A stretch of DNA of 26,350 nucleotides from a virus, in the IMG/VR virus record IMGVR_UViG_3300029448_006499, positions 1 to 26,350 of that record; one strand, given 5' to 3'. Each line of letters begins with the position of its first letter. Positions within the stretch are counted from its first letter, which is position 1. The notes beneath the pieces are model-generated. The model made no database searches, had not been told where the DNA came from, and saw nothing but the letters and a program-made list of their open reading frames with translations. Position numbers and translations under genes: made by a program. Below, piece after piece: positions 1,543 to 26,350 of the stretch.

Positions 1543-2894
1543 TAGTTTCTCTCAAAATGATTAATATAGTAGTCTAAATCTTCTGGAGTGCCTAGACCCC
1601 ACATACCACTGGCATCATATGTACGAATGGTTTTATTATCTTCAATAGCTTCATTAAATACTGGACAAACATAAAATTCGTTATTTACACGAATATCTTT
1701 TTCAATCATCTGCTCAGCGTATTTAACAAAGTCAGAACCATGCTTCCAGTAGTAGTAACCGACTGTAGCATTATTGGAGATAGGATTTTTCTCAGCAACT
1801 TCTGTTACTTTTCCATACTCGTTTACTTTAGCGTAAGACCATTTAGGATGAGTGGCTTTAAATGTTACAATACCACCATCAGCATTAGTCTCCTGCATAT
1901 TGTACATAAACTCAACAGGATTCCAATCTACATATTGATCTGAGTTTGCAAAAAACAGAGGATCATCATTATCAATAAATTCTTTTGCTAAAAGAGCAGT
2001 ACAAGCCGCACCCTCTGTTATGCCATCAACTTCAATCACCTTACAGTTTGGTGCAATTAAGTTTAGCATGGCATCAAGATTATACTTCTCTCTATGTTCT
2101 TTCTGTACAACATAGATAAAGTTTGCCTCAAGCCCAAGATTTTCAGTAACGAGCTGAATCATCGGCTTATCATGCACTTGAATAAGAGGCTTTGGGAAAG
2201 TATATCCAGCCTGAGCGAAACGACTTCCTGCTCCAGCCATAGGAATCAAAACATTTAGCTTGTCAGATTTCCATTTATTCATCACATCTTCACCTTTTAA
2301 ATTAGAGAAAACTTTTTCTCTTGTCACGTCATAAGGATTATCAACACGAATATACTTAGCTTTACTCCTAGCAGCTGACAACAATCCCTTTGGTGAGTCT
2401 TCGACAATTAGAGTATTTTCTGGAAGTGTTCCCATTATTGACATAGCCTTCCAGTAAATCTCTGGATGAGGCTTAGAGTTTTTTACATCCTCGTTAGAAA
2501 GGACAATATCAACATACTCCATAAGCTCAGTTTTGGCAAGAGCTGTTAGGACAGTCTTCCTTACGGAGTTAGTACATACACCAATTTTGTAATTTTCTTT
2601 GGAGAGTTGCTTAAACAAGTCTACGATATGAGTTACTGGTTTAAGATCTGCTACCATCTCGATAGTATATTTTTGTTTGTCTTCTGAGATCTGATTGATC
2701 TTATGAGAATCCCAGTCATACTTCCGAGCAAGTATCTTTAATTTTGCTAAAGTTGGTAAACCATCAAATACATTGATGTGATGGTTTCTAGAAATTGCAT
2801 GCTCTGGCCCCAAGGCTTTGTTCAGAGCTTCGTAGTGAATTTCTTTGGCATCAATCAATACGCCATCTAAATCAAACAGAACAAGTTTAATCAT
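1542..2894 (-). CDS. HAD hydrolase fused to sugar-phosphate nucleotidyltransferase
   Basis: A 450-residue two-domain fusion. Residues 1 to about 205 are a HAD phosphatase of the beta-phosphoglucomutase type: motif I Asp8-x-Asp10 (LFDLDGVL), motif II Thr108 (VCTNS), motif III Lys141 (SKPHPE) and motif IV Glu165-Asp166 (IVEDSPKG). From about residue 213 a nucleotidyltransferase of the NTP-transferase family begins, with the nucleotide loop MAGAGSRF (219-226) and the FPKPLIQV segment (233-240), as in glucose-1-phosphate thymidylyl- or mannose-1-phosphate guanylyltransferases. It probably dephosphorylates or interconverts a sugar phosphate and activates a sugar 1-phosphate to an NDP-sugar. The order HAD then NTase within one chain suggests substrate channelling. 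It overlaps the GDPD-like gene by four bases (ATGA). The exact sugar is unknown. Confidence 0.85.
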   Translation of the reverse strand: MIKLVLFDLDGVLIDAKEIHYEALNKALGPEHAISRNHHINVFDGLPTLAKLKILARKYDWDSHKINQISEDKQKYTIEMVADLKPVTHIVDLFKQLSKENYKIGVCTNSVRKTVLTALAKTELMEYVDIVLSNEDVKNSKPHPEIYWKAMSIMGTLPENTLIVEDSPKGLLSAARSKAKYIRVDNPYDVTREKVFSNLKGEDVMNKWKSDKLNVLIPMAGAGSRFAQAGYTFPKPLIQVHDKPMIQLVTENLGLEANFIYVVQKEHREKYNLDAMLNLIAPNCKVIEVDGITEGAACTALLAKEFIDNDDPLFFANSDQYVDWNPVEFMYNMQETNADGGIVTFKATHPKWSYAKVNEYGKVTEVAEKNPISNNATVGYYYWKHGSDFVKYAEQMIEKDIRVNNEFYVCPVFNEAIEDNKTIRTYDASGMWGLGTPEDLDYYINHFERN

Positions 2895-3337
2895 CTATAT
2901 CTCTCAATATAATCAGAACAAATACCAGCGAACTCACTCACATCAGTATTGTCCCATTCTGGCAATACTGCAATCGTTCTGTTATATTTAGTAGAGGTTC
3001 TTTGACCTGGATAAGCCCATACCCATCTTCGAGAGGTCATTGTGTACTTATCACTCTCATGCCAGAAGTAGTTGAGGTAATATCGAGACATATGTTCTAA
3101 TGCCTCGATATTTTTACAGTGTACCCACAAATTCCATTTACGATTCATCAACCATTTAATTGGAATCTTGTACATAGGCTCATCGTGGCCAAGATAAAAC
3201 TTATCTTTGTGACGCCATACATCGATCTCACAATGATAACCATGATCTAGAGCCTGATCAATATATTCAGGATTATTCTCAAGATCTTTGTTAATCCCAT
3301 TTACATTACCACGATGAGAAATTAATGTTTTTCGCAT
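2891..3337 (-). CDS. Short GDPD-like phosphodiesterase
   Basis: A 148-residue protein with the catalytic signature of the PI-PLC-like TIM-barrel superfamily: His8-Arg9-Gly10 in LISHRGN, Glu37-x-Asp39 in CEIDVW, and His51-Asp52 in LGHDEP. In glycerophosphodiester phosphodiesterases these provide the two catalytic histidines and the metal ligands. Typical family members are 230 residues or longer, so this is a compact form that may lack part of the barrel. No signal peptide is seen. It lies between a glycosyltransferase gene and the HAD-nucleotidyltransferase fusion, directly abutting the former, so a role in glycerol-phosphate or sugar-phosphodiester metabolism for glycan synthesis is plausible. 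Family assignment is good; substrate is inference. Confidence 0.7.
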   Translation of the reverse strand: MRKTLISHRGNVNGINKDLENNPEYIDQALDHGYHCEIDVWRHKDKFYLGHDEPMYKIPIKWLMNRKWNLWVHCKNIEALEHMSRYYLNYFWHESDKYTMTSRRWVWAYPGQRTSTKYNRTIAVLPEWDNTDVSEFAGICSDYIERYR

Positions 3338-4114
3338 TTAAATTTGCTCCATTAGCTGATCTACATTTTCACCACGCTCTGGAAGTTTATCTTTTAGAAA
3401 AAAGTGGACAAAGTGGCACTCAGAGATTTTAGTGTTTGCAGTATATAGACCGTTCCATTTCCAGTGCATATGCTTCACAGGTACGTTGCGAGACTTCATA
3501 AAGTAGTTAAGTAGCGTCTGATCAGTAGACCATTTCCATGCACCGATACCATCAATAAATGGTTGAAACTCAGATAGTGTCATCCATTCATACGCAGGCA
3601 TATAAATGTAATCATAGAAAGAATGATTCATTAACATTAGTCCCATGTTATAAAATTCATATCCCAGCTTGTTTGGTTTAAAATCTAGTCCTTTCTTGCC
3701 ATGTAGATTATGATACTGCATTCGAGAATAGTTCTGAATCTTAGATGCATACTGTCTGTTAATCGGCATCTCACGTTCACAGACAGCGCCAAAAGGTTTA
3801 TCTGTACCAAACTCATCAAAAATATTTGGACTGTCTGGACGAATGTAAATATCGCTGTCGACGATAGCTATTTGATCATACTCTGGCAGCAGATCAAATG
3901 CGTTCTCTTTTTCATAAATCGGTAAATATCCAAGACGTGATGCACCTTCAGAACGATTTGACGTAAAAGGATTAGGATTAATCCTCAGCTTTGGTTTAGT
4001 CAAAACATAATGTTCAATGTTGTGCCTCTTGCAATATTCAGCTACTGATTGAATACAGTGCTGATATAACTTCGATGGTTTACCGACAGATACTTGATAA
4101 ATTAAGTTTTTCAT
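3338..4114 (-). CDS. Putative GT-A-type glycosyltransferase
   Basis: A 258-residue protein with Asp86-Ser-Asp88 (IAIVDSDIYIRP), the DxD site of GT-A nucleotide-sugar transferases, followed by a conserved acceptor/donor region (YEFYNMGLMLMN) and a late WSTDQTLLNYFM segment. This order (DxD, then a gain-of-donor loop, then DQ-[TL]LN) is like GT8/GT-A enzymes such as glycogenin-like and LPS galactosyltransferases. No membrane segment is visible. Its start overlaps the stop of the nucleotide-sugar dehydrogenase gene (ATGA, 4111-4114), and its stop is directly followed by the GDPD-like start. Likely a surface-glycan transferase; specific sugar unknown. Confidence 0.75.
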   Translation of the reverse strand: MKNLIYQVSVGKPSKLYQHCIQSVAEYCKRHNIEHYVLTKPKLRINPNPFTSNRSEGASRLGYLPIYEKENAFDLLPEYDQIAIVDSDIYIRPDSPNIFDEFGTDKPFGAVCEREMPINRQYASKIQNYSRMQYHNLHGKKGLDFKPNKLGYEFYNMGLMLMNHSFYDYIYMPAYEWMTLSEFQPFIDGIGAWKWSTDQTLLNYFMKSRNVPVKHMHWKWNGLYTANTKISECHFVHFFLKDKLPERGENVDQLMEQI

Positions 4115-4908
4115 TTTGATCGATGCGTAATATTAATGTCTCGAACAGATTCGATTAACGGTAGCTTTGTGTTATTTCGTTCAGCAAAATTTACGAAAGC
4201 TGCAGTATCTTTAGGTAAACAATGACCGCCCCAGCCATATCTGCCGTCTGGTCCAGGAACCTGATTGTGCGAATGGCCAATCCTTGGGTCGAAGCCGAGA
4301 GCATAAACTGTAGAGTCATAATCTAGCTGAGGGTGAACTTTCTGCATTAAATTATAAAGATCATTGAAGAAAGTTACACGCATAGCCAAGAATGAGTTTT
4401 CTGCATACTTAACATAACCTGCCTCTACAATATCAATAAAGACTTCATTCTTAATGTTTAAGCAAGACTGAAATACATTCATCCAACCCTCTGCTTGATC
4501 TGGCTCTCCGCCAATAATCATTTTATCCTCTGCTAAAAAGTCTTCAACAGCATTATGCCCACGGAGAAACTCTGGAGAGAAACATACATTCGGATAATTA
4601 TCTTTGAAGTACTGCAAGGTTTCAATATCTGTTGTCGATTTAACCAAGATAGGTTTACTATGACCAATCTTTTCGATCACATCAATGACAATAGAATCAT
4701 CACATTTACCATCATCACCTTCTGGTGTTGGCACACATACAACTGCTGCGTCGCAGTTCTTCATCATCTCTACTAAATCTTGATTATACTCGTCATATGC
4801 TGGATCAACAATATCATAATCAAGTAGGTCAGATTTATCAAAGGCTGCAGCCATGGCCTTACCTACATAACCATAACCGATAATACCAATCTTCGCAATA
4901 TTACTCAT
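4111..4908 (-). CDS. Nucleotide-sugar (UDP-glucose type) dehydrogenase lacking C-terminal domain
   Basis: A 265-residue member of the UDP-glucose/GDP-mannose dehydrogenase family. Visible are the NAD-binding GxGYVG (Gly11 to Gly16), VCVPTPEG (residues 58-64), the SPEFLRG strip (111-117), the central-helix Lys167 and Asn171 (YVKYAENSF) and the catalytic nucleophile Cys230 in GWGGHCLPKD. These support a four-electron oxidation of a UDP- or GDP-sugar to the uronic acid. Family members are usually about 390-450 residues; here the chain stops about 35 residues after the catalytic Cys, so the C-terminal UDP-binding Rossmann-like domain is absent, and the next frame downstream is a glycosyltransferase, not the missing part. 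It overlaps both neighbours by four bases, so no obvious frameshift explains the short form. Confidence 0.85.
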   Translation of the reverse strand: MSNIAKIGIIGYGYVGKAMAAAFDKSDLLDYDIVDPAYDEYNQDLVEMMKNCDAAVVCVPTPEGDDGKCDDSIVIDVIEKIGHSKPILVKSTTDIETLQYFKDNYPNVCFSPEFLRGHNAVEDFLAEDKMIIGGEPDQAEGWMNVFQSCLNIKNEVFIDIVEAGYVKYAENSFLAMRVTFFNDLYNLMQKVHPQLDYDSTVYALGFDPRIGHSHNQVPGPDGRYGWGGHCLPKDTAAFVNFAERNNTKLPLIESVRDINITHRSK

Positions 4909-5861
4909 ATAATTTTCCTGTAATCATTTAAATCAAACTCAGTACCATGCATCTTATATAGGTCTCTTTGATGATTAGTATATACTAACACCTCTGGATC
5001 GTCAATCAGAAAATCACAACCTCTACAAAAATCAGGATAGTTTCCTGTAGTATGTTGCTTCCTTAGCTGCTCGTATTCATGACCATTCCAAATTTCTTCT
5101 GCTGTATTATCTGACATATGCCCAAGAATAGCATCATCATCCCTACCGAGAACCTGACAACAAGGATGTACAGCACCCCACTTGCCTTGAGCGCCACCTG
5201 CTCGAATGACTAAGTCTGGTGAGAATGGTCGCCCACAAGTCTTTACCTTACCCTCTCGGCCATACTCTGGATCATATACACCTGACCAGTTATGCATCTT
5301 CCAGATTTCAGTCTTCACTCCAGCATTATCAACGATCTTGCGATATTGCTCTACTTCATAATCAATATTATCATTATCCATAACAAGATGATATGTCGCA
5401 ACAGTACAATCTGATCCAGAGTCTTCTACATATCTCTGCATGGCTTCAAGATTATTAATGACTTTTGTAAACTCTTTTGAGTTCATCCACGCCCAATATG
5501 TCTCTGGATTGTATCCGATGATAGAGAAACGAAAAAAGTCTGTACCAGCGTCTACAACTCGTTTCATGTAGTCGCCATGCATACGATTACCGTTAGAGAA
5601 CATAAAAGCTTTCGCTCCATGTTTCTTGACAACTCTTACATATTCATCAAGGTTACTATTAAGAGTAGGCTCGCCACTACCCTCAAGGTTAACAACCCGC
5701 AGTCCATTATTAACCAACTGATCAATAACACTCTCAAATCTTCCCAAAGACATCTTCTTTAGCCAGTTTTTACCTCTGCCGCCTGGTTGAGACTGTGGGC
5801 ACATCTGACATGAATAATTACAGCCACCATTAATTTCAATGACAGCACGATCAATGTACAT
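4905..5861 (-). CDS. Radical SAM enzyme with SPASM-like C-terminal domain
   Basis: A 318-residue protein beginning almost at once with the radical SAM cluster motif CxxxCxxC (Cys14, Cys18, Cys21 in GGCNYSCQMCP), followed by the SAM-binding glutamate strip LEGSGEPTLN. The C-terminal third carries several further cysteines (TCGRPF, HPCCQV, DFCRGCDFL) together with AEEIWNGHEYEQLR, the layout of a SPASM/twitch auxiliary Fe-S domain. Such enzymes do radical chemistry on peptides, sugars or cofactors. Placed between glycosyltransferase-like genes and a sugar dehydrogenase, it may modify a sugar or a glycan precursor; this is inference. It overlaps the gene upstream by 11 bases and the one downstream by four. 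Confidence 0.85.
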   Translation of the reverse strand: MYIDRAVIEINGGCNYSCQMCPQSQPGGRGKNWLKKMSLGRFESVIDQLVNNGLRVVNLEGSGEPTLNSNLDEYVRVVKKHGAKAFMFSNGNRMHGDYMKRVVDAGTDFFRFSIIGYNPETYWAWMNSKEFTKVINNLEAMQRYVEDSGSDCTVATYHLVMDNDNIDYEVEQYRKIVDNAGVKTEIWKMHNWSGVYDPEYGREGKVKTCGRPFSPDLVIRAGGAQGKWGAVHPCCQVLGRDDDAILGHMSDNTAEEIWNGHEYEQLRKQHTTGNYPDFCRGCDFLIDDPEVLVYTNHQRDLYKMHGTEFDLNDYRKII

Positions 5862-6648
5862 TTTTAAGTCTCCTTAGACTCTTCGCTTCTTGTATTAATG
5901 AATCAAAATACTTATCATTCAGCAAATCATTAAAATTTGGTAGGCATAATAATTCATATGGACCTGTCCTTTGAGTATACCCCTCAGGATAGTATTTCGT
6001 GTTTAATATGGATATAATAGGCTTATTAAGAACAGTCGCTATGTTATGATACATTCCTGCATATGAAAATACAAATTCACATGTTGAGAGATGATAGTAC
6101 ACTTCCCTAATAGGAGTTCTATAGTCAAGCTCCACAACATCAAATCTACTTTTTAGATAACCTAAAATTTGATGCCACTGATCTTCAGAGTAAGTGTTTA
6201 TTTTTCCGGCTCTTTGAAACTCGCTTTCAGGTTTTCCATATTTAAAAGAGATTGCATTCATATCAAACATCCAAAAACATACTTTACCCTTTTTCTGCTT
6301 TAGATTATTTCTAAAGATATCTACGGCAGGAATATCAAAAAAAGTTATATATTCTATTTTCTTATCCCACACAAATTTTTTATCTATTACTTCATGCTCA
6401 ACATTAATATCACAATCAACATCCAATTTTGAAAAGAGAAAGTTGGCTTTTTCTTCCCAAGGTTCTACATCTTCAAAGTGTGAATACTTATCTATAGATC
6501 GTTTTCCCCAAGAAATTTTTACATTTAAAATATCGGGAGAGTGTAGAAAGTTATATTTGAAGGCTGTTAATATAGACTTTCTAATAAGAGTGCCCATTAA
6601 CAGCCCTCCTGGTAGATTAATACTATCTATTAGATGTAATTTCGTCAT
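5851..6648 (-). CDS. GT-B-like putative glycosyltransferase, paralogue A
   Basis: A 265-residue protein clearly related to the neighbour at 6623-7378. Shared blocks include YSHFED, KVCFW-x-FD, VVEL-x-YRTPIREV, YHL-x-x-CEF and AGMYH or GGMYH followed by KP and a hydrophobic strand. The last part (CEFVFSYAGMYHNIATVLNKPIISIL) has the shape of the C-terminal donor-binding half of GT-B enzymes such as ADP-heptose transferases (GT9), where a Gly-x-x-His step precedes the nucleotide site. The N-terminal half is not recognised. The gene is noticeably AT-rich. It overlaps the paralogue by 26 bases and the radical SAM gene by 11. Glycosyltransferase activity is a moderate-confidence inference. Confidence 0.5.
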   Translation of the reverse strand: MTKLHLIDSINLPGGLLMGTLIRKSILTAFKYNFLHSPDILNVKISWGKRSIDKYSHFEDVEPWEEKANFLFSKLDVDCDINVEHEVIDKKFVWDKKIEYITFFDIPAVDIFRNNLKQKKGKVCFWMFDMNAISFKYGKPESEFQRAGKINTYSEDQWHQILGYLKSRFDVVELDYRTPIREVYYHLSTCEFVFSYAGMYHNIATVLNKPIISILNTKYYPEGYTQRTGPYELLCLPNFNDLLNDKYFDSLIQEAKSLRRLKNVH

Positions 6649-7378
6649 AATTTTTTATAAATATTGATGCTAATTCTTTTTGATCTACAACAATATCAAA
6701 AGAGTGATTTTGTTTCTCCACCCACTCGAGCATCACTTTCGGCTTTAAAATACAAAACATAGGTTTACTTAACATATTTACTAACGTATGATACATGCCG
6801 CCGTATCCAACACAAAACTCACATTCCCTTAAATGGTACATTACTTCTCTGATAGGCGTTCTGTAAGATAATTCTACAACTGTATATTTTTCGTTCAACA
6901 TATGATATAAATCTTCCCAATCTTCAGGAAACATTGAAAAAAGTTTGGCTTCAGTTTCTCTTGTTGATTTTCCTAAACGATTAGCTGAATTATATGTTGC
7001 ATCGAATCTCCAAAAACATACTTTATTCTTTTTTACTTTATTATATTTAAAAACTTCATACGCATTTAACTCATATGTTTTAAAAAAATTTTCGAAAATA
7101 GGAGGATTGCCATCTCGATAACGTTGTAATTTATGTGTTATATTTAATTTGCAATCACCTAAGTTTAGTTGAGATAAAAGGTAATTAATTTTTTCTTGAA
7201 AAGATTCTTGGTCTTCGAAGTGACTATATCTTAATATATGACCATCATACCAAGAAATATTTACATTTAATTCTTTTGGATTATTATCTAAACAATATTT
7301 AAAAACTTGCCAGATAATGTTTCTTCCTACACTTCCTATCAGCAAAGAACCAGTAAGATATAAATTATGCTTGGGCAT
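6623..7378 (-). CDS. GT-B-like putative glycosyltransferase, paralogue B
   Basis: A 251-residue paralogue of the following gene: both carry [LM]-[LM]-x-G-[ST] near the N terminus, then NV-x-ISW, YSHFED, KVCFW-x-FD, YRTPIREV and a GMYH step. The C-terminal portion resembles GT-B donor-site sequence (CEFCVGYGGMYHTLVNMLSKPMFCIL). Divergence is substantial, so the duplication is old or the two were acquired together from a family with several copies. The AT content is higher than in the conserved phage genes. It overlaps the exonuclease gene by 14 bases. The most likely role is adding a sugar in the surface-glycan pathway; substrate unknown. Confidence 0.5.
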   Translation of the reverse strand: MPKHNLYLTGSLLIGSVGRNIIWQVFKYCLDNNPKELNVNISWYDGHILRYSHFEDQESFQEKINYLLSQLNLGDCKLNITHKLQRYRDGNPPIFENFFKTYELNAYEVFKYNKVKKNKVCFWRFDATYNSANRLGKSTRETEAKLFSMFPEDWEDLYHMLNEKYTVVELSYRTPIREVMYHLRECEFCVGYGGMYHTLVNMLSKPMFCILKPKVMLEWVEKQNHSFDIVVDQKELASIFIKNYDEITSNR

Positions 7379-8039
7379 TATACTGAGAAATTACATCTTT
7401 TAGTTTATCAATCCAATCATCTCGATGCTCAACGAATACAATCGGATTATCATGATCTACTGCCATAATAGTCACCAGTTGAGTAATCGGCATACCTGTA
7501 CGTTCTTCCCACATAACAGCATAACCAGCCTCTTGCTTAAAGTAGTTATATACCATTGAACGAGTTTTGCGTTTCCTTGACGTTTTAAAGTCAATTATAG
7601 AAATTTGTCCATCAAATTCAGCCACACAATCAACTCGACCAGCGACACCAAGATGATCACTATAAAGAGGTGCTTCCTGCGCATAAATTTTCCCAATACG
7701 TTCATCCAAGATAGGTTTGATATCATTAAATGTATTAAGGATATGTGGCATATACCCTTCTGCATAATTTGGATCATTATCCAAATATTTTTCTACGATT
7801 GCATGGACGTCTGTTCCACGTCCAGCTGCTTGTCTTGAAATACGATTAGCCTCTTCCTCACCAACACGTTTACGCCATTCCATGATGGCTCTCCGAGTCA
7901 GGATAGAGAGGACTGTCGTAATAGAAGGTAATTTATTCCCCTCTGGAGTTACATACTTACGTCCAGAGGTTTTTGTCTCAGTTTCGAGATCAGAGTAACC
8001 AAAGTCGACTTCAACATGTTCAAAGATTTTATTTTGCAT
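7365..8039 (-). CDS. PD-(D/E)XK-family exonuclease
   Basis: A 224-residue nuclease of the Cas4/RecB-like PD-(D/E)XK type. His79 (GRGTDVHAIVEKYL) marks the helix before the core, Asp137 lies in GVAGRVDCVAEF, and Asp150-Phe-Lys152 in ISIIDFKTSRK supplies the D-x-K catalytic pair; a tyrosine/glutamine helix (YFKQEAGYAVMWEE) follows. This is the arrangement in MGME1-like and marine-phage exonucleases, which degrade single-stranded or host DNA during replication or takeover. The N terminus (KLPSITTVLSILT) matches the lead-in commonly seen before the domain. It is embedded between sugar-related genes, overlapping the cupin gene by 11 bases. Confidence 0.85.
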   Translation of the reverse strand: MQNKIFEHVEVDFGYSDLETETKTSGRKYVTPEGNKLPSITTVLSILTRRAIMEWRKRVGEEEANRISRQAAGRGTDVHAIVEKYLDNDPNYAEGYMPHILNTFNDIKPILDERIGKIYAQEAPLYSDHLGVAGRVDCVAEFDGQISIIDFKTSRKRKTRSMVYNYFKQEAGYAVMWEERTGMPITQLVTIMAVDHDNPIVFVEHRDDWIDKLKDVISQYNAQA

Positions 8040-8373
8040 AACCTACATCTTCACGAACGATATCGTTGTGATTGAACTCAGCCCAGTAAACTTCAAAGGC
8101 TGTGGTGTCTTCCAGAGCTTCAAACTGATGATATACTCCCGGTTTTACTTTAGTCCATTGACCTTCAACCAAGACTGTTTCATCTACTAGATCGTAATCA
8201 TTCTGCCAAACACGAATAAGAAATTTACCTTTTTCTACGTAGAAACCATTCCACTTGAATTCATGTTTGTGTTTAGAGCAAACTCCACCCTTTGTAGTCT
8301 CAATACGATGAAACTCTAGAGCATGATTAGCCTCAATTAGCTCTGTCTCACCCCATACTTTACCAGAAATCAT
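8029..8373 (-). CDS. Sugar-type cupin protein
   Basis: A 114-residue single-domain cupin. It starts with KVWGETELI, a lead-in often seen in mannose-6-phosphate isomerase type II-like and polysaccharide-locus cupins, then His35-Lys-His37 (metal ligands), NGFYVEKGKFLIRVW, and the second cupin motif around VKPGVYHQFEALEDT. It could be a sugar phosphate isomerase or epimerase, or a small regulator of glycan synthesis. It overlaps the ParB-like gene upstream by four bases and the exonuclease downstream by 11, so it is part of the same transcript as the glycan island. Fold is confident; activity is inferred. Confidence 0.75.
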   Translation of the reverse strand: MISGKVWGETELIEANHALEFHRIETTKGGVCSKHKHEFKWNGFYVEKGKFLIRVWQNDYDLVDETVLVEGQWTKVKPGVYHQFEALEDTTAFEVYWAEFNHNDIVREDVGYAK

Positions 8374-9137
8374 TCCATTATCCTATACTGTCTTTCAATA
8401 CAAAAATTGTTATAGTCGCAGAAGTATTCTAACACGAACTGCGCCAATCCTTCAATAGTATATAGTTCAATATTTAACATTTGATAACTGTTATCTATTT
8501 TACTGACTTTAACTCCATTGTGCCAAAAAGTCAAGGAGTTTTTTAAGCTATCTATTTTAGATAAAAAATCAACCTTAAATGACCAAAAATCTTCTTTCTC
8601 ATCAGTTCCTAAAAATTTAGAAGATACTAAATCATATTCATCAGAAGATACTTGTTGTTTTTGCACATACATCCAATAAACAGAGTCACCAAAAAACCCT
8701 TTTTTATAGAATAAATCATAGTCGTGACTTAAAGTAGCCTCTGAAAAAATTTTATCACTTTTATCAAAATCTATTATTACTGCGGGAATATTAACTTCTT
8801 TACATATTCTGTTAAGCGCATATTTTTGATGTCCAGGAGAAACGATATATCTTTCTCTTGACTTAATAATTGTAACAGGCGAAGAGAAATTTAACCCTTG
8901 CTTAAACAGTGCGTATATGCTTGAAGCTCTACCCAAAAGATCGATAGTATTTCTTAAAAGTAACGGAGGATTATCTGATCTCCATTTTTTATCGAGAGTT
9001 TTTATTTCCCATAATTTTACGAAATTTTGTAATTCTAAAAAATCTTTAGTACTGTCAACATCTAAAAGATTTTCTGAAGGACCATATTTTTCTTCACATA
9101 AGTTATAGAAAATAGATTCATATTGATCAAAGCTCAT
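8370..9137 (-). CDS. Unknown protein with degenerate ParB/sulfiredoxin-like motif
   Basis: A 255-residue AT-rich gene whose product I do not recognise as a whole. Residues 86-123 read as a strand (SPVTII), a second strand (RYIVSPGHQK, Gly102 to Lys105), a helix (ALNRICKEVN) and a third strand (IPAVIIDFD). This is the beta-beta-alpha-beta order of the ParB/Srx-like N-terminal fold, where GERR or GxHR binds nucleotide. The final Arg is Lys here. The neighbouring gene at 9127-10032 has a comparable block, so the two may be distant paralogues. There is no visible DNA-binding helix-turn-helix. It overlaps the cupin gene by four bases and the upstream gene by 11. Confidence 0.45.
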   Translation of the reverse strand: MSFDQYESIFYNLCEEKYGPSENLLDVDSTKDFLELQNFVKLWEIKTLDKKWRSDNPPLLLRNTIDLLGRASSIYALFKQGLNFSSPVTIIKSRERYIVSPGHQKYALNRICKEVNIPAVIIDFDKSDKIFSEATLSHDYDLFYKKGFFGDSVYWMYVQKQQVSSDEYDLVSSKFLGTDEKEDFWSFKVDFLSKIDSLKNSLTFWHNGVKVSKIDNSYQMLNIELYTIEGLAQFVLEYFCDYNNFCIERQYRIME

Positions 9138-13922: not shown

Positions 13923-14331
13923 TATCACTCCTAATGTGTTTGGAGTTGACTCTACACATAATCAACTCGTTATAGTAATCTTCTCTTAATAATACATCAT
14001 TGTCAAACTGCAGTTTAGCTTCGTAGTAAGAACATTCGCCTTTAGTTCTGCAGAATTTTAGTATTTCTCTTTTGTATTTATCCAGACCATACTTTTTAAC
14101 TTCTTCTTTAAGTAAAATATTTGATCCATAGTAGTTGCGCCAATCTGATTCTTTTATTACAATTTTTCTACGGGTCTTTCCTTTTTGCTTTACTCTTCTA
14201 CGACTCCAGAGGATCTTCTTGCCGATATATTTCATGTTATTAGATAAGTTCGTTATGCGGTAAACAAATCCTGCATACTCTTCTGGAGGACTCTCAGGAT
14301 CATATACTTTTCCATTATAAATCCAGGTCAT
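13909..14331 (-). CDS. GIY-YIG nuclease domain protein
   Basis: A 140-residue protein with the GIY-YIG core: GFVYRITN (residues 21-28) and KYIGKK (34-39), followed by a basic stretch with arginines (SRRRVKQKGKTRRK), YYGSN, and a Glu-containing helix (KGECSYYEAKLQ) that would supply the metal-binding Glu. Such domains occur in homing endonucleases (Seg-type of T4), UvrC and small phage nucleases. No DNA-binding C-terminal module is visible, so this may be a free-standing homing or repair nuclease. It sits just downstream of two AT-rich sulfotransferase genes and overlaps them and the DUF6433 gene by 14-17 bases. Confidence 0.75.
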   Translation of the reverse strand: MTWIYNGKVYDPESPPEEYAGFVYRITNLSNNMKYIGKKILWSRRRVKQKGKTRRKIVIKESDWRNYYGSNILLKEEVKKYGLDKYKREILKFCRTKGECSYYEAKLQFDNDVLLREDYYNELIMCRVNSKHIRSDNGDE

Positions 14332-14935
14332 GTAGTTCTTTCATTTTATTATGATAATCATATTTATTCATAACGTCATATAAAGTATTTAAATGATAAT
14401 CGCTTAAATACTCTATTCCTTTCCCTGAACCACCGCCATTTAATAGAGTAGATTTTTTTTCTTGTTCATAAAACCAAACTTTTGATATTTCAGATTCACT
14501 TTTATTAAAAACAATTTTTTTAAATTCTTCTAGCCCATTATTTCCTATCAAATTTTCATATGTAATTAATATAAAATTTGGGTGAATATTTTTATATTCT
14601 ATCGCTGAAATATGATGTAATAATATATCTTCCCATGTATTACTTTTAAAATTTTGATTATAGGCAAAAGTTTGGTTATGCTTTCTACATTTATCAAATA
14701 ATGTTTCTTCTAAAGTTCTGTATTCAGCTTTCTTTAAATATTGAGAAATTAAAGTATCAAATGGATCTCTGATTAAATATATAAATTTTTTAGATTGATA
14801 GAGTAGGTTATTATGCATAATAAATTTATCATGTTCTCTAAATCCATGCGAAAATTTATATTCGCATTTTAAATCGGTTAACATACTTCTAAGCCAAGTT
14901 CGGCCAGAGCCAGGAAATGAGTAAACCACAATCAT
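14315..14935 (-). CDS. Sulfotransferase-like protein, paralogue A
   Basis: A 206-residue protein of the P-loop sulfotransferase superfamily. The 5'-phosphosulfate loop is FPGSGRTWLRSML (residues 7-19), and the 3'-phosphate motif is YLIRDPFDTLISQYLKK, with Arg and a Ser in the expected Arg-x-Pro-x-Asp...Ser arrangement. These enzymes transfer a sulfuryl group from PAPS to a hydroxyl or amine of a glycan or small molecule. At 206 residues it is at the small end of the family. It is AT-rich and lacks a clear Shine-Dalgarno site. It follows the paralogue at 14940 after four bases. Target glycan is not known; host PAPS would be needed. Confidence 0.8.
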   Translation of the reverse strand: MIVVYSFPGSGRTWLRSMLTDLKCEYKFSHGFREHDKFIMHNNLLYQSKKFIYLIRDPFDTLISQYLKKAEYRTLEETLFDKCRKHNQTFAYNQNFKSNTWEDILLHHISAIEYKNIHPNFILITYENLIGNNGLEEFKKIVFNKSESEISKVWFYEQEKKSTLLNGGGSGKGIEYLSDYHLNTLYDVMNKYDYHNKMKELHDLDL

Positions 14936-14939
14936 GTTT

Positions 14940-15599
14940 TTAAAAATCTTCGATTTGTTTCATTTTATTCCAATAATCTACTTCCTCAATAATTTTTTGC
15001 ATTCTTTTAATTTGACATGGCGTTAGCCATAACTTTCCATGTCCTACTAAACCACCATGTAATTTTTTACGTTTAATAAAATTATATTTATCTTCAAAAG
15101 CTGAATTAGTTAGAGCTCGCATTTTTACATTTTCATATGAAAAATGTTCCCAAACATCTTTTGTTATTTCTGGATAAATTTTTTTAAATTCTTCTATTCC
15201 ATTTTCTGCTCGTAAATTTTCATATTTAATTAATTTAAAATTACTATGTTGATTAGCTAAATGGACGGCAGATAAATGATGATTAATAATATGTGTCGGG
15301 CCATATTTTAAACGATTTTTTAAATTTACTTTTTGTTCAATAGTTTTTTTTATTCTGGATGCAAATACATCAAAAGGATTTCTCCAAAGATAAATTAATT
15401 TACCAGCCTCGCTTGAAAAATAAAAATCTTTTTTTGAAATAGTCCTATTTTTATGAGGCTGATTTGGTGGCACTGGAAGCTGAAACCCAAGGTCAACATC
15501 AAGTAAAAAATTACTTTGACGAAATTCAACTTGAAGATGATCTAAAATTGAACACATCCAAGTGTTTCCAGAACACATATACCCATACAACAAAATCAT
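14940..15599 (-). CDS. Sulfotransferase-like protein, paralogue B
   Basis: A 219-residue P-loop sulfotransferase-like protein: GYMCSGNTWMCSIL (residues 6-19) forms the PAPS loop and YLWRNPFDVFASRIKK the 3'-phosphate site. It parallels the next gene along its length, including FKLIKYENL versus FILITYENL and a shared NGIEEFKKI / NGLEEFKKI segment, so the two are tandem paralogues. It is very AT-rich (positions 15301-15360 have 11 G or C of 60). The ATG at 15599 is reached directly from a run of seven T that ends a terminator, so no ribosome-binding site is present. The P-loop requires this start. Role in sulfating a surface polysaccharide is inferred. Confidence 0.8.
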   Translation of the reverse strand: MILLYGYMCSGNTWMCSILDHLQVEFRQSNFLLDVDLGFQLPVPPNQPHKNRTISKKDFYFSSEAGKLIYLWRNPFDVFASRIKKTIEQKVNLKNRLKYGPTHIINHHLSAVHLANQHSNFKLIKYENLRAENGIEEFKKIYPEITKDVWEHFSYENVKMRALTNSAFEDKYNFIKRKKLHGGLVGHGKLWLTPCQIKRMQKIIEEVDYWNKMKQIEDF

Positions 15600-21395: not shown

Positions 21396-21719
21396 TCAAT
21401 CTAATTCTGATACAGTTGTACCTTTTTCCCACATCTTACATGACCAATAGCGAGCTTTCCACTTCGGACCAGGATTTGTATCACACTTGTGTCTAGCTCT
21501 GAAACTTTTACGGCGAGCAGGATCGTCTCGTCTGATCTCCATGTTTGGATCACCAAAACCAAGCTTGATTACGTTACCTTTTTCATTTTTAACGTAAACA
21601 TAAAACTTTTTCTTACCATCGTTCGATCGAAAAGGATCGTTGAGCTTTACCTTACGACCTTTATATTCAGCCTGTTCTACGATTGGTTCTTCTTCTATAT
21701 GGCAGCCAAACGATTTCAT
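21396..21719 (-). CDS. Conserved T4-like marine phage protein with capsid-targeting-like N terminus
   Basis: A 107-residue protein. The N terminus MKSFGCHIEEE matches the motif shared by five other genes here. The body carries a conserved domain (KKKFYVYVKNEKGNVIKL, GDPNMEIRRDDPARR, FRARHKCD, ARYWSCKMW) that I recall as widespread in cyanophage genomes, sometimes fused to other modules. Two cysteines (RHKCD and WSCKM) and many basic residues suggest a zinc- or DNA-binding role. AAAGG precedes the ATG. Function is unknown; the N-terminal motif suggests packaging in the prohead, which is inferred. Confidence 0.7.
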   Translation of the reverse strand: MKSFGCHIEEEPIVEQAEYKGRKVKLNDPFRSNDGKKKFYVYVKNEKGNVIKLGFGDPNMEIRRDDPARRKSFRARHKCDTNPGPKWKARYWSCKMWEKGTTVSELD

Positions 21720-21722
21720 TTT

Positions 21723-22118
21723 TTACCTTTTAGTTAATCGATCTAGAGCTGAACGTTTTCTTTGGTAACTTTTGATAGAAGCTTCCATATCATCACCTTT
21801 GCTTCCTCCGCTTGGGCGTTTACGGATTTTCTCAAATTCAGAGTCGTCTCTCTTCATTCCTTTTTGCAATTTTCTCTTCATTAGCATTTTACCAATGCCT
21901 CTGAATGGACCTTCATTCACTTTCTTTGGGAGACCTTTATGCTTAGTGGAAGCAAAATCCTCTAAGTCTTTTTCCGACATACGATCAGCTAAAGCTTTAA
22001 CTGTATCTGAGACTTCATCCTCTGGAACTTCGCCTCTTTTATAAGCAAGCGCCAGACCCATCAACTTCTGCTGTTGTTGGGATGTAGCTTTTTCTTTTAG
22101 CTGTTTAAATGTAATCAT
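21723..22118 (-). CDS. DUF3008-like phage protein with capsid-targeting-like N terminus
   Basis: A 131-residue protein. The start MITFKQLKEKA is a variant of the shared N-terminal motif. Residues about 13-65 (QQQQKLMGLALAYKRGEVP, VSDTVKALADRMSEKDLEDF, ASTKHKGLP) match the DUF3008-like family common in marine phages and bacteria. The C-terminal half is basic (GKMLMKRKLQKGMKRDD, KRKRSALDRLTKR), consistent with DNA contact. No clear Shine-Dalgarno is seen before the ATG. A T4-late-like ATAAATA is about 40 bases upstream on the minus strand. Function unknown. Confidence 0.7.
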   Translation of the reverse strand: MITFKQLKEKATSQQQQKLMGLALAYKRGEVPEDEVSDTVKALADRMSEKDLEDFASTKHKGLPKKVNEGPFRGIGKMLMKRKLQKGMKRDDSEFEKIRKRPSGGSKGDDMEASIKSYQRKRSALDRLTKR

Positions 22119-22163
22119 TTTTCGATATTTCCATTTAATTAAGTGAAACGCTGATATTATTTA

Positions 22164-22412
22164 TTATTTCTTAGCTTTGGCCCAGAGATCTTTGTCTGCA
22201 GTTGTTCTCGTTTTACCGCCAGTAATAAATGAGTTTACACGTGCGAACGCCCATTGCTGAGGGGTAGTTCCTGGTCTATGTCCAGTTTTCCATGCAGCCA
22301 TACCACGGTTATAAACTTGCTTTAGGATCCCGTAAGAAATACCTGATTTTTCAGCCTTTTTTACTAACCCCGCAATCTTTTTTTCAGTTAAAAATGATTT
22401 AAAACTAAGCAT
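22164..22412 (-). CDS. DUF5824-family phage protein with capsid-targeting-like N terminus
   Basis: An 82-residue protein from ATG at 22412. A longer frame starting at 22514 is open but lies inside the adjacent gene; GGAGAGAG before the 22412 ATG and the shared motif MLSFKSFLTEKK decide the start. Residues about 15-64 (KKAEKSGISYGILKQVYNR, GMAAWKTGHRPGTTPQQWAF, ARVNSFITGG) are the DUF5824 domain found in many T4-like phages. Function is unknown. The gene overlaps the nucleotidyltransferase-like gene by eight bases. Confidence 0.8.
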   Translation of the reverse strand: MLSFKSFLTEKKIAGLVKKAEKSGISYGILKQVYNRGMAAWKTGHRPGTTPQQWAFARVNSFITGGKTRTTADKDLWAKAKK

Positions 22413-23469
22413 TTTTTCTCTCTCCAAACATTTGCTTGTACTTTTTAGTATATTTGCTTGGTTTAGTTTTAGCTTCTTTGTCTCCAGGAGCTGGTTTATA
22501 AGCTTTTGGATCATCGTCTCTCATCTTAGCTTGTCGTTTAAACTGAGCGTCTCTAGCTTTCTTTGTAGACTTAGCTAAACCTGTATGATACTTCTTTGGT
22601 TGCTGACCTTTTCTATCGCCAATGTCTGGATCTTCTGGAGACTTTCTTTCTTCCAAAGGCTCTACGTCAGTTAACCACTTACGCTTTCTCTTACCATCAA
22701 CTTCTACAATTAAGTAGTTTGATCCACAAAACTCAATCTTTACTACTTCGTCAGTTTCTTTAAGGATGACCGACTGACCAACAGAAAATAAATCTCCATT
22801 AACATATTCTTCACGGCGCTCAGAGACTTTCTCTAATTGTATGTGCTGAATAAACGATTTATTTTCATTGAGGTTCATTCCCTTGCGAACAGCATTAAAT
22901 AAATCTTTTGCCAGAGAATCAGAAACGCTCTTTGGCAAGCCAGTTAAGAATGAAGGGAAATCGTTGCTTTCTGCGTTAGCTCTCATCTTAGAGGCTGACA
23001 TACCAGAAACACCTTCAGCATCTGGGTCACGTTCGCCAGCAGAGATAACCTTTACTGAATTAAAATCAAAAAGACCATGACGAGCTTTTACGCCATTATA
23101 CTTTTTTAACAGAGTTTCAAACTCAGTAACTCTATCAGAACCTGCGACCATTACCAGATTCTTGATGCCACTATCATACATATGTACGGCCGCATCAATA
23201 AATGTCTTGACGGACTTGTCCATGATAATATTCCTTGCATGCTTCGGGAACATCTTTCTCATGAATTTTACTTTGGTCTGATAGTCAAGAGGGTTCTTTT
23301 TTGAATCTTGGGACTGAGAGGCAAAGATTTTATATACGTTGCCCCGAGCTTTGCTTGCTACAGTGTCGAGCAGCTTCTCATGTCCAGTAGTAGGAGGATT
23401 AAATCTTCCGAAGGCAAGGTAGCCAACAGAGTTCTGTTCCTCTAAATATCCTTTGAATGAACTAATCAT
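22405..23469 (-). CDS. NMNAT-like nucleotidyltransferase fused to basic phage module
   Basis: A 354-residue multidomain protein. Residues 16-170 form an adenylyltransferase of the nucleotidylyltransferase alpha/beta superfamily: the (H/T)xGH site is Thr27-Thr-Gly29-His30 (GRFNPPTTGHEKL) and an ISSTKMR-like site is SGMSASKMR (155-163). This could act on nicotinamide mononucleotide or a pantetheine- or CTP-type substrate. Residues about 225-270 are an SH3-like beta unit (VGQSVILKETDEVVKIEF), followed by a very basic tail with KPAPGDKEAKTKPSKYTKK, a module I recall from many marine phage proteins. The N terminus MISSFKGYLEE is the shared capsid-targeting-like motif. Its start overlaps the stop of the gene upstream by one base. 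Confidence 0.75.
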   Translation of the reverse strand: MISSFKGYLEEQNSVGYLAFGRFNPPTTGHEKLLDTVASKARGNVYKIFASQSQDSKKNPLDYQTKVKFMRKMFPKHARNIIMDKSVKTFIDAAVHMYDSGIKNLVMVAGSDRVTEFETLLKKYNGVKARHGLFDFNSVKVISAGERDPDAEGVSGMSASKMRANAESNDFPSFLTGLPKSVSDSLAKDLFNAVRKGMNLNENKSFIQHIQLEKVSERREEYVNGDLFSVGQSVILKETDEVVKIEFCGSNYLIVEVDGKRKRKWLTDVEPLEERKSPEDPDIGDRKGQQPKKYHTGLAKSTKKARDAQFKRQAKMRDDDPKAYKPAPGDKEAKTKPSKYTKKYKQMFGERKNA

Positions 23470-23855
23470 TATCTTCTCGTCACATCCAATCTTCTCTTGC
23501 TCGGAAGGAGTCTCTTAGAAATTGTTTTAACTGCACCTTTCTTCTGTGCCAAACGTTTTTCTACTCTCGACTTCTGAGCAGCACTCATAGAGCTTTTAGA
23601 CTTACCGCCATAATATCTCTTTGTCAAGATATCTCTTGCAGATTTACGTCCTCTCCTTTTAAGTCTATCAAGACTAGCAGGTCTCTTGAGCGCTATTTTT
23701 CTTTGACGTTGTAATTTTTGTTTACGTCTACGAAACTCAATAGATCTCTTTCGCCTTGCTGCGAAAGATAAAACTTCAGATACGGGTAAAGACTCCCCCT
23801 CACTAGGAGAGGAAGTCTCAGCTAATACAGAGAGGAAGTCTTTAAACCCGATCAT
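23469..23855 (-). CDS. Highly basic protein, probable DNA-associated internal head protein
   Basis: A 128-residue protein that is strongly Arg/Lys rich from residue 33 (ARRKRSIEFRRRKQKLQ, then RKIALKRPASLDRLKRRG, and RLLPSKRRLDVTRR at the end), with few hydrophobics. It begins MIGFKDFLSVLAE, the shared motif followed by an L-A-E site. The composition fits proteins packaged with or bound to phage DNA; similar basic proteins (RRKMARRMARL-type) accompany cyanophage head genes. It shares a base with the adjacent gene. No enzyme motif. The DNA-binding role is inferred from charge. Confidence 0.7.
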   Translation of the reverse strand: MIGFKDFLSVLAETSSPSEGESLPVSEVLSFAARRKRSIEFRRRKQKLQRQRKIALKRPASLDRLKRRGRKSARDILTKRYYGGKSKSSMSAAQKSRVEKRLAQKKGAVKTISKRLLPSKRRLDVTRR

Positions 23856-23856
23856 C

Positions 23857-24495
23857 CTAGAACTTGATGCCTACGCCAATTTTCATACCATCAGCAGTAG
23901 TGGTCCAGTCATTGACTGTGGTGTCGTCGCCGTCGTCAACAACGTCTACAGACCAGCTGTAGCTAACAGATACGGAAGCTTTGTCGTTCAGTGCGTGCTC
24001 GTAACCGATTCCGTAGGAAGCGCCACCCCAACCAACAGCGATTTTACCGTCAGATGCGAGGTCCATGGAACCACCCAGCCAGATGTACTCTCCGCCGATG
24101 ATACCTGGATTGATCGTAAGAGTTGGGTCGATAGTTACGTCGCCCCACGTATTACCGTCTCCACGGCCAATCAGGTCTGTACCAGATGTTGCACCCCATG
24201 AGTAGATAATGCTAGTATCAAGGGAAGCGTAACCAAGGTCTGCGCCTGTGCCGAGACTGATCGAATAGTCATCAGCAGAATTATCACCACGGTCAACGAG
24301 TGTGAAACCTGCATCTACACCGAAGCCAGCAATGCCCAACTCTGCCCCAACGGTCCAGTCAGCATTACCTTCTAGATCGGTAGATACACTGAGAGTTGCG
24401 TTGGACGCAAGAGCAGATTCATTACCAGCAGCATCTTGAGCAATTGCAGGAGTAGCTACAGACATAGCTACAATTGCGGAAATAAGATATTTCAT
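23857..24495 (-). CDS. Exported outer-membrane beta-barrel (porin-like) protein
   Basis: A 212-residue protein with a clear signal peptide (MKYLISAIVAMSVATPAIA, cut before Gln20), followed by alternating polar/hydrophobic beta strands with aspartate- and glycine-rich turns (VSVSYSWSVDVVDDGDD, GWGGASYGIGYEH), and a terminal Phe (MKIGVGIKF), the signal for outer-membrane assembly. It resembles small porins and OmpW/OmpA-like barrels. The gene is GC-richer than its neighbours (33 G or C in 24001-24060). SD GAGGAAC precedes the ATG. It is likely host-derived and inserts in the host outer membrane. A role in altering receptors is speculation. Confidence 0.8.
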   Translation of the reverse strand: MKYLISAIVAMSVATPAIAQDAAGNESALASNATLSVSTDLEGNADWTVGAELGIAGFGVDAGFTLVDRGDNSADDYSISLGTGADLGYASLDTSIIYSWGATSGTDLIGRGDGNTWGDVTIDPTLTINPGIIGGEYIWLGGSMDLASDGKIAVGWGGASYGIGYEHALNDKASVSVSYSWSVDVVDDGDDTTVNDWTTTADGMKIGVGIKF

Positions 24496-24506
24496 ATTGT
24501 TCCTCT

Positions 24507-25730
24507 TTATTTACTCCAACCCTTTAAAATCGTTGGGTCAAAGTTTTTTGTTGAAAATTCATAGCGATTAACGAGCTTGACAGCATTACCCCCAAGCTTA
24601 TCAATAGCAACGTAACCTTCAGGCCCAGTTGATCTAAACCCGTTAGTTGTCTTAACGAAAGTCTTAATATTTTGTACTTCACTTAGTTTATTTATAAGAA
24701 GCAACTTAGCGAAAACTATAGATTTTTGTAGATCAAAAATTCTCTTAAGACTTTTTTTATTCTCCGATGAGAAGAATTCTAGAATTTTAGAGAGAGCATC
24801 TCTTTGTGTTTGTTTGCCACGTTCGGTCTTTCTTTTATCAATCTCTTTCTGATACTTATTTTCAATCCAATTAATTAGATTTCGAACGTGTTGATCAGTG
24901 TCTCCAATAATCGTACCGCTACGAACAAATGTATTATTAAAAGTCTCAATCAGCTGCGCCAGCTTTTGATTTTGCTCAAGTGTCCTAAGTGTTGAAGAAG
25001 AGATTTGATTGAAGATTTTACCTGCTCTTGAGAGATTCGCATCAACACGCTTTGTCTCTTGAGCCGAAAGTGTTGCTACATTAGTTAAGTCACGGAGCAT
25101 AGCATCCTGCTGCCAGACAGCAGAAGTCTTCTTTAACTTAGTAACATCAACACCATACGAGGCTCTCATAGTTTCAAATGTTTCACCTGTATATGTAGTA
25201 TGCCAAACTACTCCGATTTTTGCTCTTTCAATTTCTTTGCTATCCTTTCCACCCTTTTCGACAGCATAGACAATTGTATTAGGATGAAACGTGATGTAAT
25301 CCAATCCATCGATCTTTTCGGATTTGAGATCAGATTTCGTAAAAAGTAAATCACCTTGGATAACTCCTTTAATACCTAAGTTGGCAAAGTGCTTCAGAGA
25401 CATTTTAAGCTTTCTAGCCAAGTCTCCTGTTACACCATCATCATCAATATCTTTTTCTGTTTTATAAACAACAGGGTTCTTGTTAAAAATACCCTTCTTA
25501 GCAACAAAAAACTTACCATCTCTAGGATCAGTGCCAGCAAAAACAGCAGGTGCACCATCCCACTTAACACTAACGCTTCCATCCTGCTTACCAGAAAGCA
25601 TATCACGCAGAGAACGAAGAGCCAATATAGCTTGGCGTGTTCCGTTCACTCCACCGTAGATAACCTTATCTTCGATGTGAGTCATGTGTGTATTCTTTTG
25701 TTCAGTTATGTGTTGATTAAAACTTTCCAC
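24507..25730 (-). CDS. DUF6267-like protein with ligase-type KWDG motif
   Basis: A 407-residue protein from a GTG at 25730 that overlaps the upstream TAG by one base. The GTG start gives the N-terminal motif MESFNQHITEQ. It matches the DUF6267 family of cyanophages as I recall it. Residues 53-64 read VSVKWDGAPAVF, with Lys56-x-Asp58-Gly59 as in motif I of ATP-dependent DNA/RNA ligases and capping enzymes, where Lys carries AMP. A later GVIQGDLLF could be a downstream nucleotidyltransferase motif. A long helical region (about 235-340) follows. Covalent nucleotidyltransferase activity is a hypothesis. A perfect T4-late-like TATAAATA lies inside the gene at 24696-24689. Confidence 0.7.
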   Translation of the reverse strand: MESFNQHITEQKNTHMTHIEDKVIYGGVNGTRQAILALRSLRDMLSGKQDGSVSVKWDGAPAVFAGTDPRDGKFFVAKKGIFNKNPVVYKTEKDIDDDGVTGDLARKLKMSLKHFANLGIKGVIQGDLLFTKSDLKSEKIDGLDYITFHPNTIVYAVEKGGKDSKEIERAKIGVVWHTTYTGETFETMRASYGVDVTKLKKTSAVWQQDAMLRDLTNVATLSAQETKRVDANLSRAGKIFNQISSSTLRTLEQNQKLAQLIETFNNTFVRSGTIIGDTDQHVRNLINWIENKYQKEIDKRKTERGKQTQRDALSKILEFFSSENKKSLKRIFDLQKSIVFAKLLLINKLSEVQNIKTFVKTTNGFRSTGPEGYVAIDKLGGNAVKLVNRYEFSTKNFDPTILKGWSK

Positions 25731-26350
25731 TATTGATAAACCTTTAAATATACTGATGATTCGGGTAACGATGATCCAGAATAATTTGCAATATAATCTA
25801 CAAAATCGTTTCTCTGTTGTTTACTTGCTTTAACCAATCCGTAAAATATATAAGCAACCGCTAATTTTACATGAATTACACCTAAATTTTGATTATTCAA
25901 TTCAGCTTTAAATGTAGATTCATCAACTGGTCTATCTTTTACAAGAGGAGATTTTTGAATGGTATCTACCATCATCCAAAAATTATCTATTGCGAGTTCA
26001 TCTTTATTAGCAATCGCTTGAGATTCTAGTTTTTGTTTAGTATTATCTGGATAAGTATAATTCATAAATCGTTTGGCTGCATCTAGTTGTGGTCCTTGTC
26101 CTGCACGACCACCTCTTGCAGTTTTTAAAAGTATTTCCATATTCAATGATCCAAGATAAGTTGGCGATCTTACATCGACTTCTAAATTATCTGAAAGAGA
26201 TAATCGTCCACCTTGTGCAGAAAACATTGATTTAGCTCCGGCAATTTTCATACCTTCTAATTCATATTTTTTTACAAATTTATTTGTTCTATCACTATTT
26301 AATACAGAACTTTTCATTGCTTCTTCTTTTACAACCTTTTTCAATGAAAT
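25730..26350 (-). CDS. Unknown conserved phage protein, 5' end open at window edge
   Basis: The reading frame is open to the window edge; the first possible start in the window is a TTG at 26344 and an ATG at about 26317, but upstream codons are also open, so the N terminus may lie outside. Visible features are a mixed N-terminal region (KKYELEGMKIAGAKSMFSA), an RGGRAGQGPQLD element and a helical C-terminal part (NLGVIHVKLAVAYIFYGLV). I do not recognise the family. The stop TAG at 25732-25730 overlaps the GTG start of the next gene. It belongs to the same tightly packed block and is likely a virion or assembly protein; function unknown. Confidence 0.6.
   Translation of the reverse strand: MSLKKVVKEEAMKSSVLNSDRTNKFVKKYELEGMKIAGAKSMFSAQGGRLSLSDNLEVDVRSPTYLGSLNMEILLKTARGGRAGQGPQLDAAKRFMNYTYPDNTKQKLESQAIANKDELAIDNFWMMVDTIQKSPLVKDRPVDESTFKAELNNQNLGVIHVKLAVAYIFYGLVKASKQQRNDFVDYIANYSGSSLPESSVYLKVYQ

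Follow-up and report, generated by a model that had tools for sequence, protein, structure and literature searches.

Six genes lying on the minus strand between positions 21396 and 25730 of a viral DNA fragment of 26,350 bases (IMG/VR record IMGVR_UViG_3300029448_006499, called the window throughout; its sequence does not reach the head genes) start with leaders of 9-13 residues that carry aromatic residues and an [LI]-x-E site. These leaders are very probably T4-type capsid-targeting and cleavage sequences, attached to a modular and basic cargo, and comparison with related phages makes it just as credible that the tagged proteins are packaged in the head and cleaved. That they are also injected and act in the newly infected cell is reasonably likely by analogy with phage T4. 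A first-pass annotation of this DNA had proposed that the T4 capsid-targeting sequence (CTS) and cleavage by the prohead protease (gp21 in T4) account for these N termini; the proposal has held up well, with its predictions as to leader positions, modularity, confinement to one locus, and gp21 and gp23 all borne out in relatives.

The six open reading frames and their N termini were found exactly where that annotation had placed them (Table 1). The pattern that it described as shared is present in its strict form, M-x(1,3)-[FY]-x3-[LI]-x-E, in four of the six, while the other two depart from it: MITFKQLKE has a short F-x2-L-x-E form, one residue less than the strict pattern, and in MIGFKDFLSVLAE the [LI]-x-E is shifted by three residues. 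The block reaches further upstream than these six, the gene preceding that for the DUF6267 protein often being tagged in relatives.

Occurrence of the leader in the window and in related genomes

Gene starts were taken from a simple gene caller, and the expected number of matches from internal positions. The caller misses some true starts (TTG or GTG codons, or an ATG further upstream), so that strict-pattern counts based on it are conservative; upstream sequence was read in frame to recheck the starts. In the window, 5 of 41 called starts match, against 0.14 expected; four of these belong to the block, whereas the start at 12585, the remaining match, is doubtful. Applied to T4 as a control, the same pattern returns IPI, IPII and IPIII, the known CTS-bearing internal proteins, together with one other gene. 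All four matches in C48C1, the closest named phage, fall within the homologous locus at 61.8-68.4 kb, as do all 16 of those in four metagenomic relatives of 96-152 kb (G001, G002, G003 and G004, four called starts each), making 20/20 within the cargo locus for these five genomes. Two of the four matches in the Methylophilales phage Melnitz (EXVC043M) are in the locus, and its DUF6267 and NMNAT proteins likewise carry leaders, LINFSKYITE and MKKFSEIIE; HTVC008M has one match, which is unrelated, and no called start of cyanophage S-H9-2 matches the strict pattern.

Among the 1264 called genes of 80 IMG/VR loci, selected by their similarity to one window protein, 178 have strict starts against 1.8 expected, counts that do not represent independent events because the loci are related to each other. 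These starts are essentially limited to the cargo families, with none or nearly none in the neighbouring conserved families; the outcome that the first-pass annotation had set against its own proposal, a motif equally common at the starts of unrelated genes, was not seen. Relaxed patterns also match residues of the protein body, such as MLVFSELTEEN in phrog_407, and for that reason were not used as evidence.

Two further Melnitz proteins are candidates for tagged cargo outside the locus: a RimK-type ATP-grasp protein that starts MTQKFSQFITE (L018:382-1431, plus strand) and a zeta-toxin/P-loop-kinase-like protein that starts MKTFAELQE (L014:4603-5271, plus strand).

Conserved positions of the leader

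The DUF6267 leader is present at all 78 of the complete starts of close relatives. When 59 dereplicated relatives were aligned with the conserved core as the anchor, F was found in 58, F, Y or H three residues on in 57 (28, 18 and 11, respectively), I, L or V in all 59 and E in all 59; the residue preceding this E is T in 50, and the remaining positions are variable. The four constrained columns correspond to residues 4, 7, 8 and 10 of T4 IPIII, where targeting depends on 4 and 7 and processing on 8 and 10 (PMC9026906), a match not built into the alignment, since it was the core that served as anchor. Synonymous codons are interchanged among the relatives at these positions (TTT/TTC, ATA/ATT/ATC/TTA/CTG, GAA/GAG), so selection acts on the protein. 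The GTG start at 25730, as first annotated, is credible in view of the F that nearly all of these relatives have at the aligned position and of their starts, which usually are ATG at the same place; relative L073 likewise has GTG there.

Comparable leaders are found on the other families. The 61 distinct NMNAT relatives have [SGNR]F-x-x-[YF]-[LI]-x-E, including four rows first scored as misses in which it was read by eye, and 25 of 42 distinct DUF5824 relatives carry the motif, for example as MITFKSYLAE or MIRFSQYITE. Close relatives of the 128-amino-acid (aa) basic protein keep FKDFLS..[ILV][AT]E. Leaders of DUF3008 relatives include MITFKQLQE, MKFKELQE and MIDFFQLRE; close phrog_7595 relatives start MKSFGCYIDE or MKTFGCYIDE, and that of C48C1 starts MKKFKQYIDE. 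Some phrog_1462-type relatives begin MKSFKSFITE, MLRFKAFLLE or MLRFRDFLTE, and others are untagged.

The leader as a separable module

In every case tested the domain matches begin beyond the leader, at residues 11-25 (residue 25 for the phrog_23027 match). DUF6267 proteins of the cyanophage type lack the leader at all of the 81 loci and start with M[AT] directly ahead of the K-N-x-H core, that is, within one or two residues of the cut predicted for the tagged form, between E and Q-KNTH. The NMNAT protein of S-H9-2 similarly starts directly at its domain, and members of the phrog_1462 family start either as MKSFKSFITE-ATMFGSM or as MFSKM. Where NMNAT and DUF5824 form single polypeptides (L055-L059), only one leader is present, at the front, and that of DUF5824 is absent. 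An AlphaFold model of a tagged phrog_1462 relative has a mean predicted local distance difference test score (pLDDT) of 88.6, with residues 1-11 below 50 and, at residues 3-8, a short helix modelled with low confidence; in the DUF6267 model, which is weaker overall, residues 1-17 are disordered.

The first-pass annotation had taken the tagged proteins to be otherwise unrelated. They do mostly belong to separate families, though their modules have been recombined into fusions in relatives (NMNAT with DUF5824, and DUF6267 with NMNAT). NMNAT-DUF5824 fusions are found in Melnitz (L002:7359-9311, minus strand), in HTVC008M (L004:7938-9728, minus strand) and in L055-L059; the Melnitz fusion also holds a phrog_7595-like domain and, like L055-L059, has a single leader. 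At the module joints of the NMNAT fusions lie internal VSFKEHL (Melnitz) and VSFKSFDEE (HTVC008M), possibly relics of former leaders.

Prohead protease and major capsid protein of the relatives

Since the window fragment lacks head genes, gp21 and gp23 were sought in the relatives. A gp21 of the peptidase S77 type (PF03420, above cut-off) is encoded by Melnitz, C48C1, HTVC008M and S-H9-2 and by three of the six large tagged contigs (G002, G003 and G004), the other three of which may be fragments. At the position of the T4 gp23 cleavage site, FLTE followed by A, the gp23 proteins of relatives have FLTE, FLGE, FLSE, HLTE or ALNE, as assigned by position, and so end in L-x-E like the leaders. The relatives' gp21 itself starts MKLI-x-E, which recalls the LIE-9 described for gp21 of T4 (PMC9026906). 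In C48C1, a small gene adjoining gp21 starts MRTFKELREA, resembling MITFKQLKE of the window. The gp23 proteins of G002, G003, G004 and C48C1 begin M-x-S-[FY]-D-x-L-[IV]-E-K-W, like the short leader form.

Proposed pathway and alternative explanations

During prohead assembly, the aromatic residues in the first ten or so positions would dock each tagged protein into the scaffolding core; a gp21-type protease would then cut after [LI]-x-E, removing the leader and leaving the mature basic protein alongside the DNA in the head. This cargo would be modular, consisting of the NMNAT-like nucleotidyltransferase, the DUF6267 protein and several small basic proteins, with variable upstream proteins in relatives. 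The mature proteins probably would be ejected with the genome and act ahead of phage gene expression, an expectation drawn from the analogy with T4 Ip1-3 and Alt. A role of the cargo in counter-defence or nucleic-acid protection is speculative. Tentatively, and with somewhat less than even confidence, we suggest that a widespread marine T4-like lineage loads its head by means of a transferable, self-removing tag with a swappable set of enzymes (the NMNAT-like enzyme, DUF6267 and variable upstream proteins), injected as a pre-early kit for counter-defence or genome protection, and that cyanophages keep the same enzymes untagged in the cytoplasm.

Several observations weigh against capsid targeting of this block. 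The phage's own gp21 and gp23 are not within the 26-kb window, and the block adjoins replication genes rather than head genes; the T4 late-promoter motif TATAAATA is not enriched in the window (3 sites against 2.8 expected). An L-x-E is missing from some DUF5824 relatives, which start FKQFNEN, from some relatives of the 107-aa protein, and from most of the wider relatives of the 128-aa basic protein, which have F-K-D-[FY]-[LIM]. Basicity does speak for packaging, the six cargo proteins having isoelectric points (pI) of 9.6-11.9, with 6/6 at 9.5 or above, a level that 6-14% of the proteins encoded by related genomes reach; several untagged DUF6267 and NMNAT homologues are basic too, so this property is not specific to the tagged forms. 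DUF6267 proteins of the HTVC008M type (L141-L220) have a short M..L-x-E leader (MELLNE, MLLVE, MYNDLLVE), mostly without aromatics, in which L-x-E is at the same place and the length and aromatic residues are lost. In the DUF6267 tree, whose root is not fixed, these are joined with most cyanophage-type sequences (97/83), and the window-like and Melnitz-like groups, both with aromatic leaders, are joined to each other (99/93); the sequences could reflect either an early origin of the leader followed by erosion in one branch or its stepwise gain.

The main alternative, unlikely on balance and still to be taken seriously, is that the leader-bearing proteins have a structural or assembly role in the prohead core, as scaffold-like or DNA-condensing components, and that they remain in the head or undergo degradation instead of reaching the host. 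The leader-like starts of the C48C1 gene beside gp21 and of gp23 in several of these phages agree with this, as do the small size and strongly basic character of four of the six cargo proteins. Building of the head is, however, an unlikely job for the NMNAT-like and DUF6267 proteins, because the former keeps catalytic-type motifs and, in cyanophages, the two form a syntenic pair that lacks the tag; moreover, the tagged slot upstream of DUF6267 holds differing families, as expected for cargo.

Quite improbable is an amphipathic segment that docks onto a membrane or some other complex of phage or host, with no involvement of the capsid. The spaced aromatic and aliphatic residues could form a helix, such as the low-confidence one modelled at residues 3-8, but this would explain neither the invariant E nor the homologues that start at or next to the cut, nor why the end of the leader resembles the gp23 site and the same pattern recovers IPI-IPIII. 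Least credible of all is a likeness due to start-site bias or to the close kinship of the loci. The non-independence of the 80 loci and the false positives of relaxed patterns (as in phrog_407) leave some opening for it, but the leader is found on several non-homologous families, the strict pattern is absent outside the locus in C48C1 and G001-G004, and between the constrained positions the leaders have widely diverged while the cores are conserved.

Proposed cargo proteins and their surroundings

Table 1. Genes of the tagged block in the window, with their leaders and domain matches
Protein	Positions	Strand	Leader	Domain match or basis
DUF6267 protein, 407 aa, GTG start	24507..25730	-	MESFNQHITE before Q = 25701-25730	Pfam PF19782, E 1.9e-102, from residue 13
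Basic protein, 128 aa, pI 11.9	23469..23855	-	displaced, MIGFKDFLSVLAE = 23817-23855	
NMNAT/cytidylyltransferase-like protein, 354 aa	22405..23469	-	MISSFKGYLEE before Q = 23437-23469	Pfam PF01467 from residue 18; PHROG 3041/395
DUF5824 protein, 82 aa	22164..22412	-	MLSFKSFLTE = 22383-22412	Pfam PF19141 from residue 20
DUF3008 protein, 131 aa	21723..22118	-	short form, MITFKQLKE = 22092-22118	Pfam PF11450 from residue 11
phrog_7595 protein, 107 aa	21396..21719	-	MKSFGCHIEE = 21690-21719	phrog_7595 from residue 15
phrog_1462-type protein, 3' part (upstream of DUF6267)	25730..26350	-	N terminus outside window	alignment

By its domain and motifs, the 354-aa protein is a member of the NMNAT/cytidylyltransferase superfamily: it scores 27.5 bits with PF01467 (cut-off 21), matches the PHROG cytidyltransferase, and keeps NPPTTGH and SGMSASKMR motifs, of the (H/T)xGH and SxSxxR types, the residues of which are invariant in the alignment. 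The NCBIfam NMNAT models score under their cut-off, and a sequence search of solved structures gave no match. The KWDGAP of the DUF6267 protein is invariant and, as a KxDG sequence, resembles motif I of ligases; Foldseek gives a weak match to 1xdn (E 0.39, probability 0.30), and RNA ligases recur among its weak BFVD matches. A ligase assignment gained no support from a fold search of the PDB or from an hhalign alignment to T4 Rnl2, neither of which gave a significant match. The DUF6267-NMNAT pair is syntenic near replication genes in both tagged and untagged phages and is fused in some (S-PM2 has a DUF6267-cytidylyltransferase fusion), so they are likely to function jointly.

Upstream of DUF6267, relatives have one or another of several tagged families: phrog_1462, phrog_13937 and a family of about 255 aa. 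The phrog_1462 family gives a confident model, for which a fold search of the PDB found no match. The ~255-aa family (L054:9246-10004, plus strand, with homologues in L102, L111 and L119) contains KYADV...WLEVK; its reading as a PD-(D/E)XK nuclease was set aside as a by-eye likeness with no Pfam match.

The tagged genes for the DUF6267 and basic proteins flank an untagged gene for a 212-aa protein (23857-24495, minus strand) with a Sec-type signal, MKYLISAIVAMSVATPAIAQ, and an outer-membrane-like composition; its position is conserved in the nearest relatives. Elsewhere in the window, positions 1-9000 (minus strand) hold what by eye appears to be a run of sugar or surface-polymer genes, unusual for a T4-like phage: glycosyltransferase-like genes, a fusion of HAD and nucleotidyltransferase (1542-2894), a sugar-nucleotide dehydrogenase-like gene (4111-4908) and a radical-SAM-like gene (4905-5861). 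Two adjoining genes at 14315-15599 (minus strand) look like sulfotransferases (YSFPGSGRTWLRSML and YGYMCSGNTWMCSIL, also by eye).

Comparison with known systems

Internal proteins directed by a CTS are well known in T-even phages. T4 Ip1-3 are injected and inhibit the GmrSD restriction enzymes (PMC12373910); the same source, citing Repoila 1994, describes the CTS as having served to find internal-protein genes in T-even phages. What appears to be new is a T4-type leader in marine phages near the Kyanoviridae, placed on modular, mostly unrelated proteins that include likely enzymes and that have untagged orthologues in cyanophages. The mature parts match DUF6267, cytidylyltransferase, DUF5824, DUF3008 and uncharacterised PHROGs in Pfam and PHROG, none of them named as an internal protein. 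A literature search, with subscription journals mostly outside its reach, found the CTS together with marine or cyanophage T4-like phages only in a review and found no paper mentioning DUF6267. If the proposed reading is true, the ten-residue pattern makes it possible to predict, for abundant uncultured marine phages, which proteins are packaged in the head and probably injected, as it did with the internal proteins of T-even coliphages, and DUF6267, DUF5824, DUF3008, phrog_1462 and phrog_7595 become candidates for action at DNA entry.

The closest likeness is to IPI, IPII and IPIII of T4 (Straboviridae), with which the window shares a leader of about ten residues with aromatics at 4 and 7, [LI] at 8 and E at 10, the presence in one genome of several small basic proteins unrelated to one another and, here in the relatives, a gp21-type protease. 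Unlike the T4 proteins, those described here belong to marine T4-like phages nearest members of the Kyanoviridae, have a cargo that includes an NMNAT-like protein and DUF6267, have modules both fused and split, and show one short and one displaced form of the leader. T4 Alt, an injected ADP-ribosyltransferase, is packaged in the T4-type head and processed by gp21 (PMC9026906); no ADP-ribosyltransferase was found in the block, a comparison made without direct alignment. The ejection proteins of giant phage SPN3US are head proteins that undergo cleavage by a prohead protease and enter the host (PMC5694885), and the polyvalent proteins are predicted injected multidomain proteins (PMC5512222); in the literature within reach of the search, no report was found of a discrete transferable leader of this form that several separate enzymes encoded together in a marine T4-like phage have in common. 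The DUF6267 and cytidylyltransferase pair of cyanophages S-H9-2, S-8S53 and S-CAM3 is orthologous to that of the window and lies in the same order near replication genes, but differs in having no leader, its DUF6267 starting M[AT]-KN-x-H; tagged and untagged orthologues of the same enzyme pair thereby offer a natural comparison for why a particle should carry an enzyme.

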